Position numbers and translations under genes: made by a program. From Pseudooceanicola nanhaiensis DSM 18065 (lineage in GTDB: Bacteria > Pseudomonadota > Alphaproteobacteria > Rhodobacterales > Rhodobacteraceae), in assembly GCF_000688295.1 (NCBI RefSeq), contig NZ_JHZF01000011.1:714288-778287 (forward strand): a DNA stretch of 64,000 bases, read 5' to 3'. The notes under the pieces are model-generated. The model did not search any database, was not told where the DNA came from, and saw nothing but the letters and a program-made list of their open reading frames with translations. Numbering within the stretch: position 1 is the first letter of the stretch; the number at the start of each line of letters is the position of its first letter. Shown here in pieces: positions 2,654-13,893 of this stretch.

Positions 2654-3436
2654 ATGTACGAGACCGTGACCATCGAGCGCGACGACCGCGACGTCGCCTG
2701 GCTCTGGCTCGACCGGGCCGAGAAGCACAACGCGATGTCGGCCCGGATGATCGGCGAGATCACGGCGGCGGCGAATGAGCTTGCGGCGGATGAAAGCGTG
2801 CGGGTCGTCGTGCTGGGCGCGAAGGGCCGGACCTTCTGCGCCGGGGGCGACCTGGGTTGGATGAAGGACCAGTTCGACGCCTCGCCCGATGAGCGCCGGC
2901 GCGAGGCGGCGGCGCTGGCCTACATGCTCAAGGCGCTGAACGACATGCCGAAGCCGCTGATCGGGCGGCTGCAGGGCAATGCCTTCGGCGGCGGCGTGGG
3001 CATGGCCGCGGTCTGCGACATCGCGATCGGGGTGGACACGCTCTCGATGGCGCTGACCGAGACCCGGCTGGGCCTGATCCCCGCGACCATCGGGCCCTAC
3101 GTGGTCGCCCGGATGGGCGAGGCCAAGGCGCGGCGGGTGTTCTTCACCGGCCGCAGGTTCGATGCGGCCGAGGCGGTGGCGCTCGACCTGCTCTCGCGCG
3201 CGGTGCCGGAAAGCGAGCTCGACGCGGCGGTGGAGGCCGAGATCGTGCCCGCGCTCGACTGCGCGCCCGGCGCGGTGGCGCGGGCGAAGGCGCTCGTGCA
3301 GCATCTCGGGCCGCGGGTCGGAGAGGCCGAGATCGACCATTCCGTGGGCGAACTCGTGGCCTGCTGGGAAGGCGACGAGGCGCCGGAGGGGATCGGCGGG
3401 TTCTTCGACAAGCGGAAGCCGCGCTGGCAGGGGTGA
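2654..3436 (+). CDS. liuC: Methylglutaconyl-CoA hydratase (crotonase family)
   Basis: A crotonase-superfamily protein of about 260 residues. The first oxyanion-hole segment is FCAGGDLGWMK and the second is NAFGGGVGMAAVCDIAI; LTETRLGLIPATIGPYV follows, as in enoyl-CoA hydratases. Substrate assignment (3-methylglutaconyl-CoA to HMG-CoA, leucine pathway) comes from the operon, since the fold alone does not fix it. Two in-frame ATGs exist. I prefer 2654 because GGGAGG at 2641-2646 sits seven bases before it; the ATG at 2648 would have almost no spacing but would overlap the upstream TGA. This is the last gene of the operon in view. Confidence 0.88.
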   Translation: MYETVTIERDDRDVAWLWLDRAEKHNAMSARMIGEITAAANELAADESVRVVVLGAKGRTFCAGGDLGWMKDQFDASPDERRREAAALAYMLKALNDMPKPLIGRLQGNAFGGGVGMAAVCDIAIGVDTLSMALTETRLGLIPATIGPYVVARMGEAKARRVFFTGRRFDAAEAVALDLLSRAVPESELDAAVEAEIVPALDCAPGAVARAKALVQHLGPRVGEAEIDHSVGELVACWEGDEAPEGIGGFFDKRKPRWQG

Positions 3437-7438: not shown

Positions 7439-8617
7439 ATGCTGCGACGCCTGCATCACGAACAGCCCGAGGGCTTTGCCTTCACCCCGGACAACCAGAA
7501 ATGGGCCGAGGCGCAGATCACCAAGTATCCCGAGGGTCGGCAGGCCTCGGCGATCATCCCGCTGCTGTGGCGCGCGCAGGAGCAGGAGGGCTGGCTGACC
7601 CGGCCCGCCATCGAGAGCGTGGCCGAGATGCTGGGCATGGCCTACATCCGGGCGCTCGAGGTGGCGACGTTCTACTTCATGTTCCAGCTCCAGCCCGTGG
7701 GCTCGGTCGCGCATATCCAGGTCTGCGGGACGACCTCCTGCATGATCTGCGGCGCCGAGGACCTGATGGAGGTCTGCAAGGACAAGATCGCGCCCCGGCC
7801 GCACGAGCTGTCGGCGGACGGCAAGTTCTCGTGGGAGGAGGTCGAATGCCTCGGCGCCTGCGCGAACGCGCCCATGGCCCAGATCGGCAAGGATTACTAC
7901 GAGGACCTGACCACCGAACGGCTGGCCGAGATCATCGACGAGCTGGCCGAGGGCAAGGTGCCGGTGCCGGGGCCGCAGAACGGGCGCTATGCCTCGGAAC
8001 CGCTGTCGGGGCTGACCAGCCTCAAGGACCACGACAGCGGCAAGACGCAGTACAACGCCTCGGCGCAGCTGGCGACCGACATCGGCGACACGGTGAAGCG
8101 GATCGACGGGACCGAGGTGCCGCTGCTGACGCCGTGGCAGGACCGCGCCGACAAGACCCCGGCCGCGGCGGGCAATGCCGACCAGACGCCGGAAGAGTCC
8201 GTCGCGCAGACCGAGGCGCAGGAACCGCGCCCCGCCGAAGGCAAGCCGGTGGACGAGACCGGCGCCACCGAGCAGGAGGCGCAGGAGGTCGAGAAGGGCC
8301 ATCCGCAATCCCGTGGCGATCAGCAGGAGGGCGGCAACCAGGAGGGGCCGAGGAACCCGCGCGACGTCACCGGCACGAGGCCCGCGGGCCTGACCGAGGC
8401 GCGCGATGGCAGGCCCGACGATCTGAAGAAGCTCCGGGGCGTGGGCCCGAAGCTCGAGGCGCAGCTGCATTCGATGGGCTATTATCACTACGATCAGGTC
8501 GCGGCCTGGAGCGAGGATGAGGTGGCCTGGATCGATCAGAACCTCGAAGGGTTCAAGGGCCGCGCCAGCCGCGATGGCTGGGTCGATCACGCGAAGGAGC
8601 TCGGGAAGAAGGGCTGA
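7439..8617 (+). CDS. nuoE: NADH-quinone oxidoreductase subunit E with C-terminal helix-hairpin-helix domain
   Basis: A 392-residue protein, more than twice the usual NuoE length. Residues 1-175 are a normal NuoE: a helical bundle and a thioredoxin-like domain whose [2Fe-2S] cluster N1a ligands are in [10 protein letters not shown] and [10 protein letters not shown]. Residues about 195-325 are a low-complexity linker rich in Glu, Gln, Pro and Ala. Residues about 327-388 form a helix-hairpin-helix-like domain ([12 protein letters not shown], then [12 protein letters not shown]). The same domain occurs in the next gene. Long NuoE proteins of this type occur in Rhodobacterales, but I know of no function for the extension. 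The frame is continuous, so this is a true fusion and not a read-through error. Confidence 0.94.
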
Positions 8618-8655: not shown

Positions 8656-9303
8656 ATGGACTGGGAAAGCAAGGAAGGACGCTGCACGCTGGCCTGCTGG
8701 GCCGGGGCCATCGTCATCGGCCTCCTCGCCTTCTTCGTTCTCGACACCTTCCTCTTCAAGCTGCTGGCCCAGATCGGCGGGCTCCTGGTGCTCGTCGGGG
8801 CCGGTATCGTGCTGACGCAGACCGTCTGCGTCTCGCACAAGGCCCCGCCGCCTGATCCGGCCGATCTGTCGCCGGACGCGGTGGCCGCGCCGCAGGCCGC
8901 GCCCGCCCCGGGCGCGGGCGGCAGCGCGGCACTGGCGCAGCCCGGAAGCGGGGGCGCCGCACGGGTGCATGTTCCGGCGGATGCGGGAACGGCGGAATGG
9001 GACGAGGCGCAGGAGAGCGGCTCGACCGCGGCCACCAGCGCGGTGGCCTATGTGGAACCGGAGATGCCGGAAAGCCCGCAGGGCGGCACGGCGGACGATC
9101 TGAAACGGCTGGAGGGCATCGGCCCGAAGGTCGAGGAGACGCTGAACGGTCTCGGGATCTGGCGCTACGACCAGATCGCCGCATGGACCGGGGAGGACGT
9201 CACCCGGATCGAGGCCGAGGCGCCCGCGCTGCGGGGCCGGGCGGCAAGGGATGATTGGGTCGGGCAGGCGAAGGCGCTCTCGGCCGGGAACGATGTGACG
9301 TGA
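8656..9303 (+). CDS. Membrane-anchored helix-hairpin-helix protein
   Basis: A 215-residue protein without a family name I can give. Residues about 12-54 hold two hydrophobic helices (AGAIVIGLLAFFVL and IGGLLVLVGAGIVL). Residues 62-140 are a Pro/Ala/Gly-rich linker. Residues about 145-209 are a helix-hairpin-helix-like domain (LEGIGPKVEETL, then YDQIAAWTGEDV and RAARDDWV). This last domain matches the C-terminal domain of NuoE encoded immediately upstream at close to half of its positions, so the two genes share a duplicated module. ATG at 8656 follows GAGGATGAGACC. The product would hold the domain at the cytoplasmic face if the N terminus is inside, which I infer only. Confidence 0.8.
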   Translation: MDWESKEGRCTLACWAGAIVIGLLAFFVLDTFLFKLLAQIGGLLVLVGAGIVLTQTVCVSHKAPPPDPADLSPDAVAAPQAAPAPGAGGSAALAQPGSGGAARVHVPADAGTAEWDEAQESGSTAATSAVAYVEPEMPESPQGGTADDLKRLEGIGPKVEETLNGLGIWRYDQIAAWTGEDVTRIEAEAPALRGRAARDDWVGQAKALSAGNDVT

Positions 9304-9555: not shown

Positions 9556-9559
9556 CGTG

Positions 9560-10858
9560 ATGCTCAAGGACGAAGACCGCATTTTCACCAACCTCTACGG
9601 CATGCACGACCGCACGCTGAAGGGCGCGCAGGCGCGCGGCCATTGGGACGGGACGAAGGACCTGATCGGTCTGGGGCGTGACAAGATCATCGAGATCATG
9701 AAGGCCTCCGGTCTTCGCGGCCGCGGCGGGGCAGGCTTCCCGACCGGGCTCAAGTGGTCCTTCATGCCGAAGGAAAGCGACGGGCGGCCGTCCTACCTGG
9801 TGGTGAACGCGGACGAATCCGAGCCCGGGACCTGCAAGGACCGCGAGATCATGCGCCATGATCCGCACACGCTGATCGAAGGCTGCCTGATCGCCTCCTT
9901 CGCGATGAACGCGCATGCCTGCTACATCTACCTGCGCGGCGAATACATCCGCGAGCGCGAGGCGCTCCAGATGGCGATCGACGAATGCTATGACGCGGGC
10001 TTCCTCGGGACCAATGCCTGCGGCACGGGCTGGGATTTCGACCTCTACCTCCACCACGGCGCCGGCGCCTACATCTGCGGCGAGGAAACCGCGCTGCTGG
10101 AAAGCCTCGAAGGCAAGAAGGGCATGCCCCGGATGAAGCCGCCGTTCCCGGCGGGCGCGGGGCTCTACGGCTGCCCGACCACGGTGAACAACGTCGAATC
10201 CATCGCCGTCGTGCCGACCATCCTGCGCCGCGGCGCCGAATGGTTCGCGGGCTTCGGCCGCGAGAACAACGCGGGCACCAAGCTCTATGCCATCTCGGGC
10301 CACGTGAATAACCCCTGCGTCGTCGAAGAGGCGATGAGCATCCCCTTCGAGGAGCTGATCGAGAAGCATTGCGGCGGTATCCGCGGGGGCTGGGACAACC
10401 TGCTCGCCGTGATCCCCGGCGGTTCCTCGGTCCCGTGCGTCCGCGGCGAGAAGATGCGCGACGCGATCATGGATTTCGACTACCTCCGGGGCGAGCTGCA
10501 ATCCGGCCTCGGCACGGCGGCGGTGATCGTCATGGACAAGAACACCGACATCGTGAAGGCGATCTGGCGGCTGGCGAAGTTCTACAAGCACGAAAGCTGC
10601 GGCCAGTGCACGCCCTGCCGGGAAGGCACCGGCTGGATGATGCGGGTGATGGAACGGCTCGTGCGCGGCGACGCCAGCATCGAGGAGATCGACATGCTGC
10701 TCGACGTCACCAAGCAGGTCGAGGGCCACACGATCTGCGCATTGGGCGATGCGGCGGCCTGGCCGATCCAGGGCCTGATCCGCAACTTCCGGGGCGAGAT
10801 CGAGGACCGCATCAAGGCCAAGCAGACAGGCCGCGTCTCTGCGGTGGCGGCCCGCTGA
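9560..10858 (+). CDS. nuoF: NADH-quinone oxidoreductase subunit F (NADH- and FMN-binding)
   Basis: A 432-residue subunit that oxidises NADH. The glycine-rich NADH/FMN motifs [16 protein letters not shown] and [16 protein letters not shown] are present, and the [4Fe-4S] cluster N3 ligands are in [12 protein letters not shown] plus TICALGD. The start is taken as ATG at 9560, giving [15 protein letters not shown] as in other Rhodobacteraceae; GAGG at 9549-9552 is seven bases upstream. A GTG one codon earlier is less well spaced. It follows the small membrane protein by four bases. Confidence 0.97.
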
Positions 10859-10859
10859 G

Positions 10860-11111
10860 GTGAGCGCCCCCATCCGTCATATCGCCGAGTTCAACATCGG
10901 CATCCTCCGGCACGGCTGGGACGATCCGCGGATCGCCGATTTCGTGAACGGGCTGGACCGCGTGAACGCCCTGGCGCACCGCGGGCCCGGGTTCGTCCGG
11001 ATGGAGCGGCTCGAGCGTCTGACTGAACACGGGCCCACGGATCATGCCTTCGGCTGGGACGCGGTGAAGGCGCAGGGTTGGCAGGCACATCGGTGCGGGG
11101 AGGCGGCATGA
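10860..11111 (+). CDS. Shortened DUF3291-like protein
   Basis: An 83-residue protein starting with GTG one base after the nuoF stop. Residues 5-47 (HIAEFNIGIL, DDPRIADFVNGLDRVNALA, GPGFVRM) look like the N-terminal part of DUF3291 proteins. Residues 48-66 (MERLERLTEHGPTDHAFGWD) look like the C-terminal end of the same family. The middle, roughly 70 residues in family members as I remember them, is missing. The reading frame is intact and the stop overlaps the next gene's ATG, so it is expressed or at least kept in frame. It may be a degraded copy or a minimal form. Function is unknown. Confidence 0.65.
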   Translation: MSAPIRHIAEFNIGILRHGWDDPRIADFVNGLDRVNALAHRGPGFVRMERLERLTEHGPTDHAFGWDAVKAQGWQAHRCGEAA

Positions 11112-11461
11112 AGCTGGTAGGTGCGGTGATCATCCTGGGTGTGCTCGCGGGCTGCGCGGCGATCCAGAACGGGACGCGGGCCCTGTCGAACGACCGGCAG
11201 CGGTTCAACGGGCAGCTCTATTCGGCCAAGGTGCAGGCGGATGCGACCCGGCCCGAGCTTTTCGTCGTCGGCGTCGGCAACCTCGACCGCGGGCTCGAGG
11301 GCGCCGTGGAGGCGGGCCGCTACGAGGCCTATACCTATTGCCTGAACCAGTTCGGCCTGACCGACATCCGCTGGGCGCTCGGCCCCGATGCGCCGCGGCA
11401 GAGCCTGAGGATCACCGACGGCCGCCTGACCCTGCAGGGGGAGTGCGTCGGATGGGTCTGA
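11108..11461 (+). CDS. Small lipoprotein in the nuo operon
   Basis: A 117-residue protein with a short lipoprotein signal: MKLVGAVIILGVLAGC, with the lipobox LAGC and the lipidated cysteine at residue 16. The mature part has conserved-looking segments (GQLYSAKVQADAT, YEAYTYCLNQFGLTDIRW) and a second cysteine pair (TYCLN, GECVG). No known family is recognised. The start overlaps the upstream stop by four bases and the end overlaps the next gene by ten, so it belongs to a chain of coupled genes between nuoF and nuoG. The product would be anchored in a membrane facing the periplasm. Confidence 0.75.
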   Translation: MKLVGAVIILGVLAGCAAIQNGTRALSNDRQRFNGQLYSAKVQADATRPELFVVGVGNLDRGLEGAVEAGRYEAYTYCLNQFGLTDIRWALGPDAPRQSLRITDGRLTLQGECVGWV

Positions 11462-11868
11462 GCCTGAAACCCGGTCTCTCCCTCGCGCTGGTGCTGGCGC
11501 TCGGCTTCGGCGCCGGCGCCGCGGCCAAGACGCCGCTGCGCGAGCAGAAGGAGATCGACGACAAGATGCTCTGGGTGGCGCTCGCCATCGAGATCAGCGA
11601 CCGCTGCGCGGCCATCGCGCCCCGGACGCTGACCGGGCTGAGCTATCTCTGGGGGCTCAAGTCCGACGCCAGCAAGCTGGGCTACACGGACGATGAAATC
11701 CGCGCCTACGTGCGCTCCGATGCCGAGAAGGCCCGGATGCGCCGGCGCGGCGAGGCTTATGTGCGGGCAAAGGGGCTCGATCCCGAGAGCGACGCGGATC
11801 TCTGCGCACTCGGCACGCAGGAAATGGAGAAGGGCAGCCAGATCGGCGCCTTTCTGAAGGAGAAGTGA
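11452..11868 (+). CDS. Exported protein between nuoF and nuoG (DUF5333-like)
   Basis: A 138-residue protein with a Sec signal peptide (MGLSLKPGLSLALVLALGF, cleavage probably after AGAAA). The mature part has two cysteines (DRCAAIAP and DLCALGT) about 75 residues apart, consistent with a disulfide, and a charged helical segment (RSDAEKARMRRRGEAYV). From memory it fits a Rhodobacterales family called DUF5333 seen with nuo genes; unverified. The ATG at 11452 lies inside the end of the preceding lipoprotein gene, and the stop is three bases before nuoG. Confidence 0.72.
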   Translation: MGLSLKPGLSLALVLALGFGAGAAAKTPLREQKEIDDKMLWVALAIEISDRCAAIAPRTLTGLSYLWGLKSDASKLGYTDDEIRAYVRSDAEKARMRRRGEAYVRAKGLDPESDADLCALGTQEMEKGSQIGAFLKEK

Positions 11869-11871
11869 GAC

Positions 11872-13893
11872 ATGGCTGACCTTCGCAAGATCGTCATCGA
11901 CGGCAAGGAAATCGAGGTGGATCCGGCGCTGACGCTGATCCAGGCCTGTGAGCAGGCCGGGATCGAGGTGCCGCGCTTCTGCTATCACGAGCGTCTGTCG
12001 ATCGCGGGCAACTGCCGGATGTGCCTCGTCGAGGTCGTCGGCGGGCCGCCGAAGCCCGCTGCCTCCTGCGCGATGCAGGTCCGCGACCTGCGGCCCGGGC
12101 CGGAAGGCGCCCCGCCGGTCATCAAGACGAATTCGCCGATGGTGAAGAAGGCCCGCGAGGGGGTGATGGAGTTCCTGCTCATCAACCACCCGCTCGACTG
12201 CCCGATCTGCGACCAGGGCGGCGAATGCGACCTGCAGGACCAGGCGATGGCCTATGGCGTCGACTTCTCGCGCTACCGCGAGCCGAAGCGCGCCGTGGAC
12301 GATCTGGACCTCGGCCCGCTGGTCGAGACGCACATGACCCGCTGCATCTCCTGCACCCGCTGCGTGCGCTTCACGACCGAGGTCGCGGGCATCACCCAGA
12401 TGGGCCAGACCGGCCGGGGCGAGGATGCGGAGATCACCTCCTACCTCAACCAGACGCTCGATTCGGAGCTTCAGGGCAACATCATCGACCTCTGCCCCGT
12501 GGGCGCTCTGGTCTCGAAGCCCTACGCCTTCACCGCGCGGCCCTGGGAGCTTTCGAAGACCGAGACGGTCGACGTGATGGACGCGCTCGGGTCCTCGATC
12601 CGGGTGGACACGAAGGGCCGCGAAGTGATGCGGATCCTGCCGCGCAACCATGACGGCGTGAACGAGGAATGGATCTCGGACAAGACGCGCTTCGTCTGGG
12701 ACGGGCTGCGGCGCCAGCGCCTCGACCGGCCCTATCTGCGCGTGGACGGCAAGCTGAAGCCCGCGACCTGGCCGGAGGCGCTGACGGCTGCCGCCAACGC
12801 GATGAAGGGCAGGAAGGTTGCCGGGCTGGTCGGCGATCTCGTCTCGGTCGAGGCGGCCTATGCGCTGAAGACGCTGGTCGAAAGCCTCGGCGGCACCGTG
12901 GAGTGCCGCACCGATGGCGCGAAGCTGCCCGCCGGCAACCGGTCGGGCTATGCCGGGACCGCCGCGATCGAGGACATCGACACCGCCGGCGGCATCCTTC
13001 TGATCGGGACCAACCCGCGCGCCGAGGCGCCGGTGCTGAACGCCCGGATCCGCAAGGCATGGCTGAAGGGCGCGCAGGTCGGGGTGATCGGCGAGGCGGT
13101 CGACCTGACCTACGATTACCACCATTTCGGCACCGACCGCGCGGCGCTCTCCGAGCATGTAAAGACCGCGAAGGAGGCGCCCGAGGACGAGAGCCAGGGC
13201 ATCGTGATCGTCGGGCAGGGCGCCCTGCGCGAGGCGGACGGCGCGGCCGTGCTGGCCGCCGCGATGGAGATCGCCGAGGCGCGCAAGGCGAAGCTGCTGA
13301 TCCTGCACACCGCCGCCTCCCGCGTCGGCGCAATGGACATCGGCGCCGTGACCGAGGGCGGCATGGAGGCCGCGCTCGACGGGGCGGAGGTGATCTACAA
13401 CCTCGGCGCCGACGAGGTCGAGATCGGCGAGGGCGCCTTCGTGATCTACCAGGGCAGCCATGGCGACCGGGGCGCGCACCGCGCCGACGTGATCCTGCCG
13501 GGCGCCGCCTGGACCGAGGAGAACGGGCTTTTCGTCAACACCGAGGGCCGCCCGCAGCTGGCGCTCCGGGCCGGGTTCGCCCCGGGCGAGGCCAAGGAGA
13601 ACTGGGCGATCCTGCGCGCGCTTTCGGCCGAGGCCGGAGAGACGCTGCCCTTCGACAGCCTCGCGCAGCTGCGCACGGCCATGGTCGAGGTGGCGCCGGT
13701 CCTGAAGGGGCTGGACGAGGTGGCCGAGAACGAATGGCAGGCCCTCGAGCCGGGCCAGCTGGGCGAGGCGAGCTTCGTCGGCGCGGTGAAGGACTTCTAC
13801 CTCACCAACCCGATCGCGCGCGCCTCCGAGGTGATGGCCGATCTCTCGGCGCGCGCCAAGGCGCGGGGCCAGACCGCCATGGCCGCGGAGTAG
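11872..13893 (+). CDS. nuoG: NADH-quinone oxidoreductase subunit G (75 kDa, iron-sulfur)
   Basis: A 673-residue peripheral-arm subunit. The N terminus has the ferredoxin-like [2Fe-2S] site ([16 protein letters not shown] and a later cysteine in AASCAMQ), then the His/Cys motif of cluster N5 ([17 protein letters not shown]) and the N4 motif ([10 protein letters not shown], with CPVGAL further on). The remainder is a degenerate molybdopterin-oxidoreductase-like domain, shorter than in E. coli, as in mitochondria-like alphaproteobacterial enzymes. An AAGGAGAAG ribosome site overlaps the end of the preceding gene. Confidence 0.97.

Follow-up and report, generated by a model that had tools for sequence, protein, structure and literature searches.

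In-frame deletion remnants in operons are an ordinary outcome of gene loss: the middle of a gene is lost and the frame stays open, thus no polar effect is expected. The closest full-length counterparts of the gene described here are DUF3291 genes (PF11695) located between nuoF and nuoG, where the usual neighbours are a lipoprotein-like gene and a DUF5333 gene, frequently in the order DUF3291, lipoprotein-like gene, DUF5333. The DUF3291 fold is presumably dimeric and alpha/beta barrel-like. The window, a stretch of 64,000 nucleotides from Pseudooceanicola nanhaiensis DSM 18065, carries at this place a DUF3291 gene that shares the N- and C-terminal ends, the position, the strand and the 3' junction with the full-length copies of the subfamily named A here, but is without about half of the domain (~78 codons). 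Like the operon remnants, it has lost its middle and kept an open frame; here, the coupling is putative. We propose that one in-frame deletion occurred in an A-subfamily DUF3291 gene and that the ends persist through the translation layout of the operon. We regard this as probable; the junctions are present, and the coupling would follow from their arrangement. The locus would then be a clean case of how an important operon loses a non-essential member: the ends, with the start/stop junctions and the ribosome-binding-like site of the next gene, stay and the middle goes. Joined by another, independent case from the genus, it makes a testable point on gene death in operons. It is also a warning for annotation: an 83-aa DUF3291 product at this site is probably a remnant.

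Features between nuoF and nuoG, in positions of the window
Feature	Position	Strand	Remark
nuoF	9557..10858	+	TGA stop 10856-10858
N-terminal remnant of DUF3291 (residues 1-47)	10860..11000	+	assigned to A subfamily
Deletion junction GFV/RM/ER	10998..11006	+	lacks ~78 codons of G018_A
C-terminal remnant of DUF3291 (residues 48-83) with stop	11001..11111	+	
GGGGAGG, Shine-Dalgarno-like	11097..11103	+	in the final codons of the short ORF
Small lipoprotein-like gene	11108..11461	+	lipobox-like LAGC; start overlaps the short ORF stop
DUF5333 gene	11452..11868	+	PF17267, 2.2e-38
nuoG	11872..13893	+	

The short ORF (10860-11111) has a GTG start and encodes 83 aa, and no alternative start (ATG, GTG or TTG) was found upstream in its open frame. 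Pfam matches it to PF11695 in two stretches (5.7e-14, 52.4 bits, above the curated cut-off of 23.5 bits), thus placing it in the family by score; the complete domain of 139 profile positions is absent, the matches being confined to the two ends. A local DUF3291 profile of 159 positions was made from 60 intact copies in related intervals, leaving out five rows (the window copy, the G009 copy, both G159 pieces and the G214 fragment). On this profile, a first match pairs residues 6-48 with positions 4-46 at 56.8 bits and a second pairs residues 48-79 with positions 126-158 at 26.2 bits; the missing middle amounts to about 79 of the 159 positions. Scored alone, the N-terminal half reaches 57.7 bits and its 2000 shuffles at most 6.4; for the C-terminal half, the values are 29.5 bits and, again with 2000 shuffles, 6.3. 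The initial annotation, which read the product as a fusion of the N- and C-terminal parts of DUF3291, is borne out for both halves, and the idea of a C-terminal half unrelated to DUF3291 is rejected. It had put the loss at about 70 residues; the middle is indeed missing, but the loss is slightly larger, with 252 nt compared with 486 nt in the nearest full-length relative, the A copy of genome G018 (G018_A). At the deletion junction, the GFVW motif has lost its W.

The survey covered 123 nuoF-nuoG loci: 22 from the genus, the window's included, 100 from genera elsewhere in the family, and L002 from Psychromarinibacter sediminicola. All 22 genus genomes have nuoF and nuoG. The 100 loci were mostly the top ones by NuoF similarity, with G168 skipped at a contig end; four of them (G022, G025, G026 and G029) were selected on previously seen DUF3291, and the share of DUF3291 is therefore slightly inflated. 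For 13 of the 123 loci, no nuoG start turned up in the fetched stretch. A DUF3291 signal occurs in 54 of the 123 loci (7/22 in the genus, 46/100 in other genera, and L002), with 60 intact copies spread over 51 of them. Within the genus, five intervals have an intact copy and two a gutted one, leaving 17 of the 22 without an intact copy. Damaged copies occur in four loci: the window (L057), G009 (L055), G159 (L092) and G214 (L091). None of the 123 intervals yielded a second genome with the exact short form of the window. Considering that 51 of the 123 intervals, those of the nearest relatives included, hold intact DUF3291, the short form is the exception, and its being ancestral is rejected. 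In the window genome, a whole-genome search found no further DUF3291, the partial copy being the only one, which disposes of a paralogue encoded elsewhere as a replacement. Given the absence of another genomic copy and the small number of intact genus intervals, the gene is dispensable. Among individual intervals, that of G018 (L036) holds three DUF3291 copies. By eye, it also has a MAPEG-type membrane protein-like ORF, and that of G020 (L037) has a methyltransferase-like one.

The relatives support a full-length ancestor at the same place. G018 and G020 have the top NuoG N-terminal identity to the window (94% and 95%) and carry full-length A copies upstream of the same lipoprotein-like gene, thus the short form is derived. 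In other genera, full-length A copies start soon after the aligned nuoF end (6 bases in L090, 38 in L106 and 72 in L077). The last 24 bases of the short ORF and the first 6 of the next gene are identical to the G018_A site at 29 of 30 positions, which favours a deletion within one gene. Over the whole C-terminal half, base identity to G018_A is 64%, and the best-conserved part is its 3' end with GGGGAGG. Judged by this comparison, the short ORF is a derived DUF3291 gene with an internal deletion. Looking at the junction and at the B copies, we guess that a short ATG or GATG match may have aided the deletion.

The DUF3291 copies split into at least two subfamilies, named A and B here. Of the 65 DUF3291 rows, 50 entered the assignment, 10 as A and 40 as B; the other 15, namely the window, G009, the damaged copies and the outlying branches, were set aside. 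The N-terminal half of the window copy scores 88.1 bits with A and 55.8 with B; in leave-one-out scoring, A members range from +26.7 to +47.4 and B members from -54.7 to -25.6, and with its difference of +32 this half unambiguously belongs to A. For the C-terminal half (43.6 bits with A, 55.1 with B), the difference of -11.5 lies just outside the values of the A copies (-10.9 to +13.0), those of the B copies being -44.6 to -2.5; its subfamily is ambiguous with a lean to B, 37 residues being insufficient for a firm call. This better fit to B would suit a hybrid of tandem paralogues, in which a deletion fused the start of an A copy to the end of an adjacent B copy; the 14 top matches of the C-terminal half are B copies, and neighbouring A-then-B pairs do exist in L002 and L116. 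However, the 3' end and junction match G018_A at 29/30, and the A and B copies of G018 and G020 flank the lipoprotein-like gene, so that a deletion from A to B would remove this gene, yet it is present in the window. We consider a hybrid quite unlikely, and the short ORF as the G018_A orthologue after an internal deletion is favoured.

An intact frame with overlapping start and stop junctions had been described for this ORF. The frame is intact, and at the 3' junction its stop overlaps the start of the next gene in ATGA (11108-11111); on the 5' side, there is no overlap, the GTG (10860) following the nuoF stop (10856-10858) after one base. GGGGAGG (11097-11103), which we take to be the putative Shine-Dalgarno site of the lipoprotein-like gene, sits four bases ahead of its ATG. 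The layout of a coupled stub, with start/stop junctions and a ribosome-binding-like site placed for the lipoprotein-like gene, is present in the sequence. We propose the following course. The ancestor had a full-length A-subfamily gene between nuoF and the lipoprotein-like gene, and a single in-frame deletion of ~234 bp, which the comparison shows, took out the middle of the domain. Ribosomes finishing nuoF would restart at the GTG one base on, read the short frame and halt at the ATGA, where the lipoprotein-like gene begins and close to its Shine-Dalgarno-like site at the end of the short ORF. An internal deletion would spare both junctions, and an in-frame one would let the nuoF ribosomes reach the next start; the ends would thus be kept because they belong to the translation layout of the operon. 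The arrangement is consistent with retention for translational coupling.

A second gutted DUF3291 occurs in the same genus. The G009 stub (L055), of 70 aa, lies between the lipoprotein-like gene and DUF5333, its frame open from an ATG that overlaps the stop of the lipoprotein-like gene through to an ATGA. It resembles the window copy in its in-frame internal deletion, its coupled-looking junctions and the operon interval, but it belongs to the B subfamily, sits at another position, and is an independent event with a decayed protein. Its halves score 40.6 and 12.6 bits on the profile, and a Pfam search of the stub did not recognise DUF3291. Against the B copy of G016 (G016_B), dN is 0.20 and dS 0.17, whereas intact G016_B and G003_B differ over the same columns by dN 0.03 and dS 0.18; with dN/dS near 1, the G009 protein sequence is no longer constrained.

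The residues retained in the window present a different picture. The N-terminal half scores 81.3 bits and the C-terminal half 61.2, both within what the ten intact A copies give (71.1-95.5 and 25.9-65.7 bits), and dN to the A copy of G020 (G020_A) is 0.36 for the window and 0.33 for intact G018_A. Judged by these half-scores and dN values, there is no clear sign of relaxed amino-acid constraint in the window copy. Over 78 codons, the window and G018_A differ by dN 0.27 and dS 0.42, a higher ratio than between G018_A and G020_A (0.33 and 1.12), which may hint at some relaxation, although the numbers are small. Since the remaining residues are not decayed, a recent deletion or a retained mini-protein is possible. 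Most likely, the product no longer performs the job of DUF3291.

The description of the ORF as a decayed gene kept for coupling thus holds in part: the junctions and the 3' ribosome-binding-like site fit, but the retained residues show no decay. Moreover, only two internal deletions were found, in the window and in G009. Both are in frame, for which the chance is 1 in 9, and two are too few to demonstrate constraint on frame. Against coupling as a rule, G004 (L043) has seemingly lost DUF5333 without keeping a coupled frame: by eye, the gene is down to its last codons (GAFLMEN and the stop), within the 50 bases that precede nuoG. These codons contain the nuoG ribosome-binding-like site, and a similar 3' end is found in G018. 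Two further damaged copies depart from the in-frame stub pattern: a nonsense copy in G159 (562-1017 in nuoF-to-nuoG orientation), otherwise full-length with one in-frame TAA at about profile position 102, and a cut-short second copy in G214 (3046-3186), which ends abruptly after ~33 residues in a locus that also has an intact copy. The latter was perhaps broken by a mobile element, which is a guess. A 52-aa ORF before nuoG in G018 was considered as a DUF5333 remnant and rejected, with 0.9 bits on the profile (reached by 121 of 2000 shuffles) and no Pfam match. It has the terminal bases GCCTTTCTGAAGGAGAA in common with the window DUF5333; only these last bases count, and the ORF was excluded as a third gutted case.

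The ends may also have been kept by neutral chance, the deletion being recent, the frame open by luck and the stub bound to decay with no translation role. One deletion in three keeps the frame. With a G+C-rich genome (GC3 of 0.84-0.94 for the genes at this place), open frames persist; the retained residues have not yet decayed, and 17 of the 22 genus intervals do without an intact copy. On the other side, both internally deleted copies are in frame with junctions kept, which is weak evidence at n = 2, and the decayed G009 stub is nevertheless still open. We find chance rather unlikely, and less likely than retention through the translation layout. Selection might instead have acted on a new minimal protein, translated and built from the first and last DUF3291 segments. 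The conserved residues kept at both ends and the lack of a clear excess of amino-acid changes speak for it, but with the form in one genome among 123 intervals selection cannot be measured, the loss of the GFVW tryptophan at the junction counts against it, and a poor AlphaFold2 model (mean pLDDT 55, three-sequence alignment) gives its fold no support. Such a protein is very improbable. A broader reading, that the window holds either a selected mini-DUF3291 or an actively retained relay, and that reduction to in-frame relays, rather than disappearance, is the recurrent fate of accessory genes embedded in the nuo interval, seems unlikely to us. Retention of the ends through the translation layout is thus the reading that we prefer.

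The AlphaFold2 models (mean pLDDT 55, and 39 with a two-sequence alignment) were too poor for use, and a PDB sequence search for DUF3291 relatives gave no convincing match (best E 0.51). G018_A has a weak, below-cut-off Pfam match to ABM (0.0055), which hints at a monooxygenase-like barrel. Literature searches at the level of listings found DUF3291 named in one paper, nothing on DUF5333, nothing on the R. capsulatus nuo operon with nuoF, and nothing visibly relevant either on in-frame deletion and coupling or on Rhodobacterales complex I.

The nuoF-nuoG interval, as seen in L036 (G018) and L037 (G020), is a hot spot for gene gain and loss. Upstream of this interval, the C-terminal tail of NuoE (7439-8617) weakly matches a helix-hairpin-helix, and the following ORF (8656-9303) ends in a tail (DDLKRLEGIGPKVEETL..) that closely resembles that of NuoE; in both cases, the Pfam scores are weak and below the cut-off.
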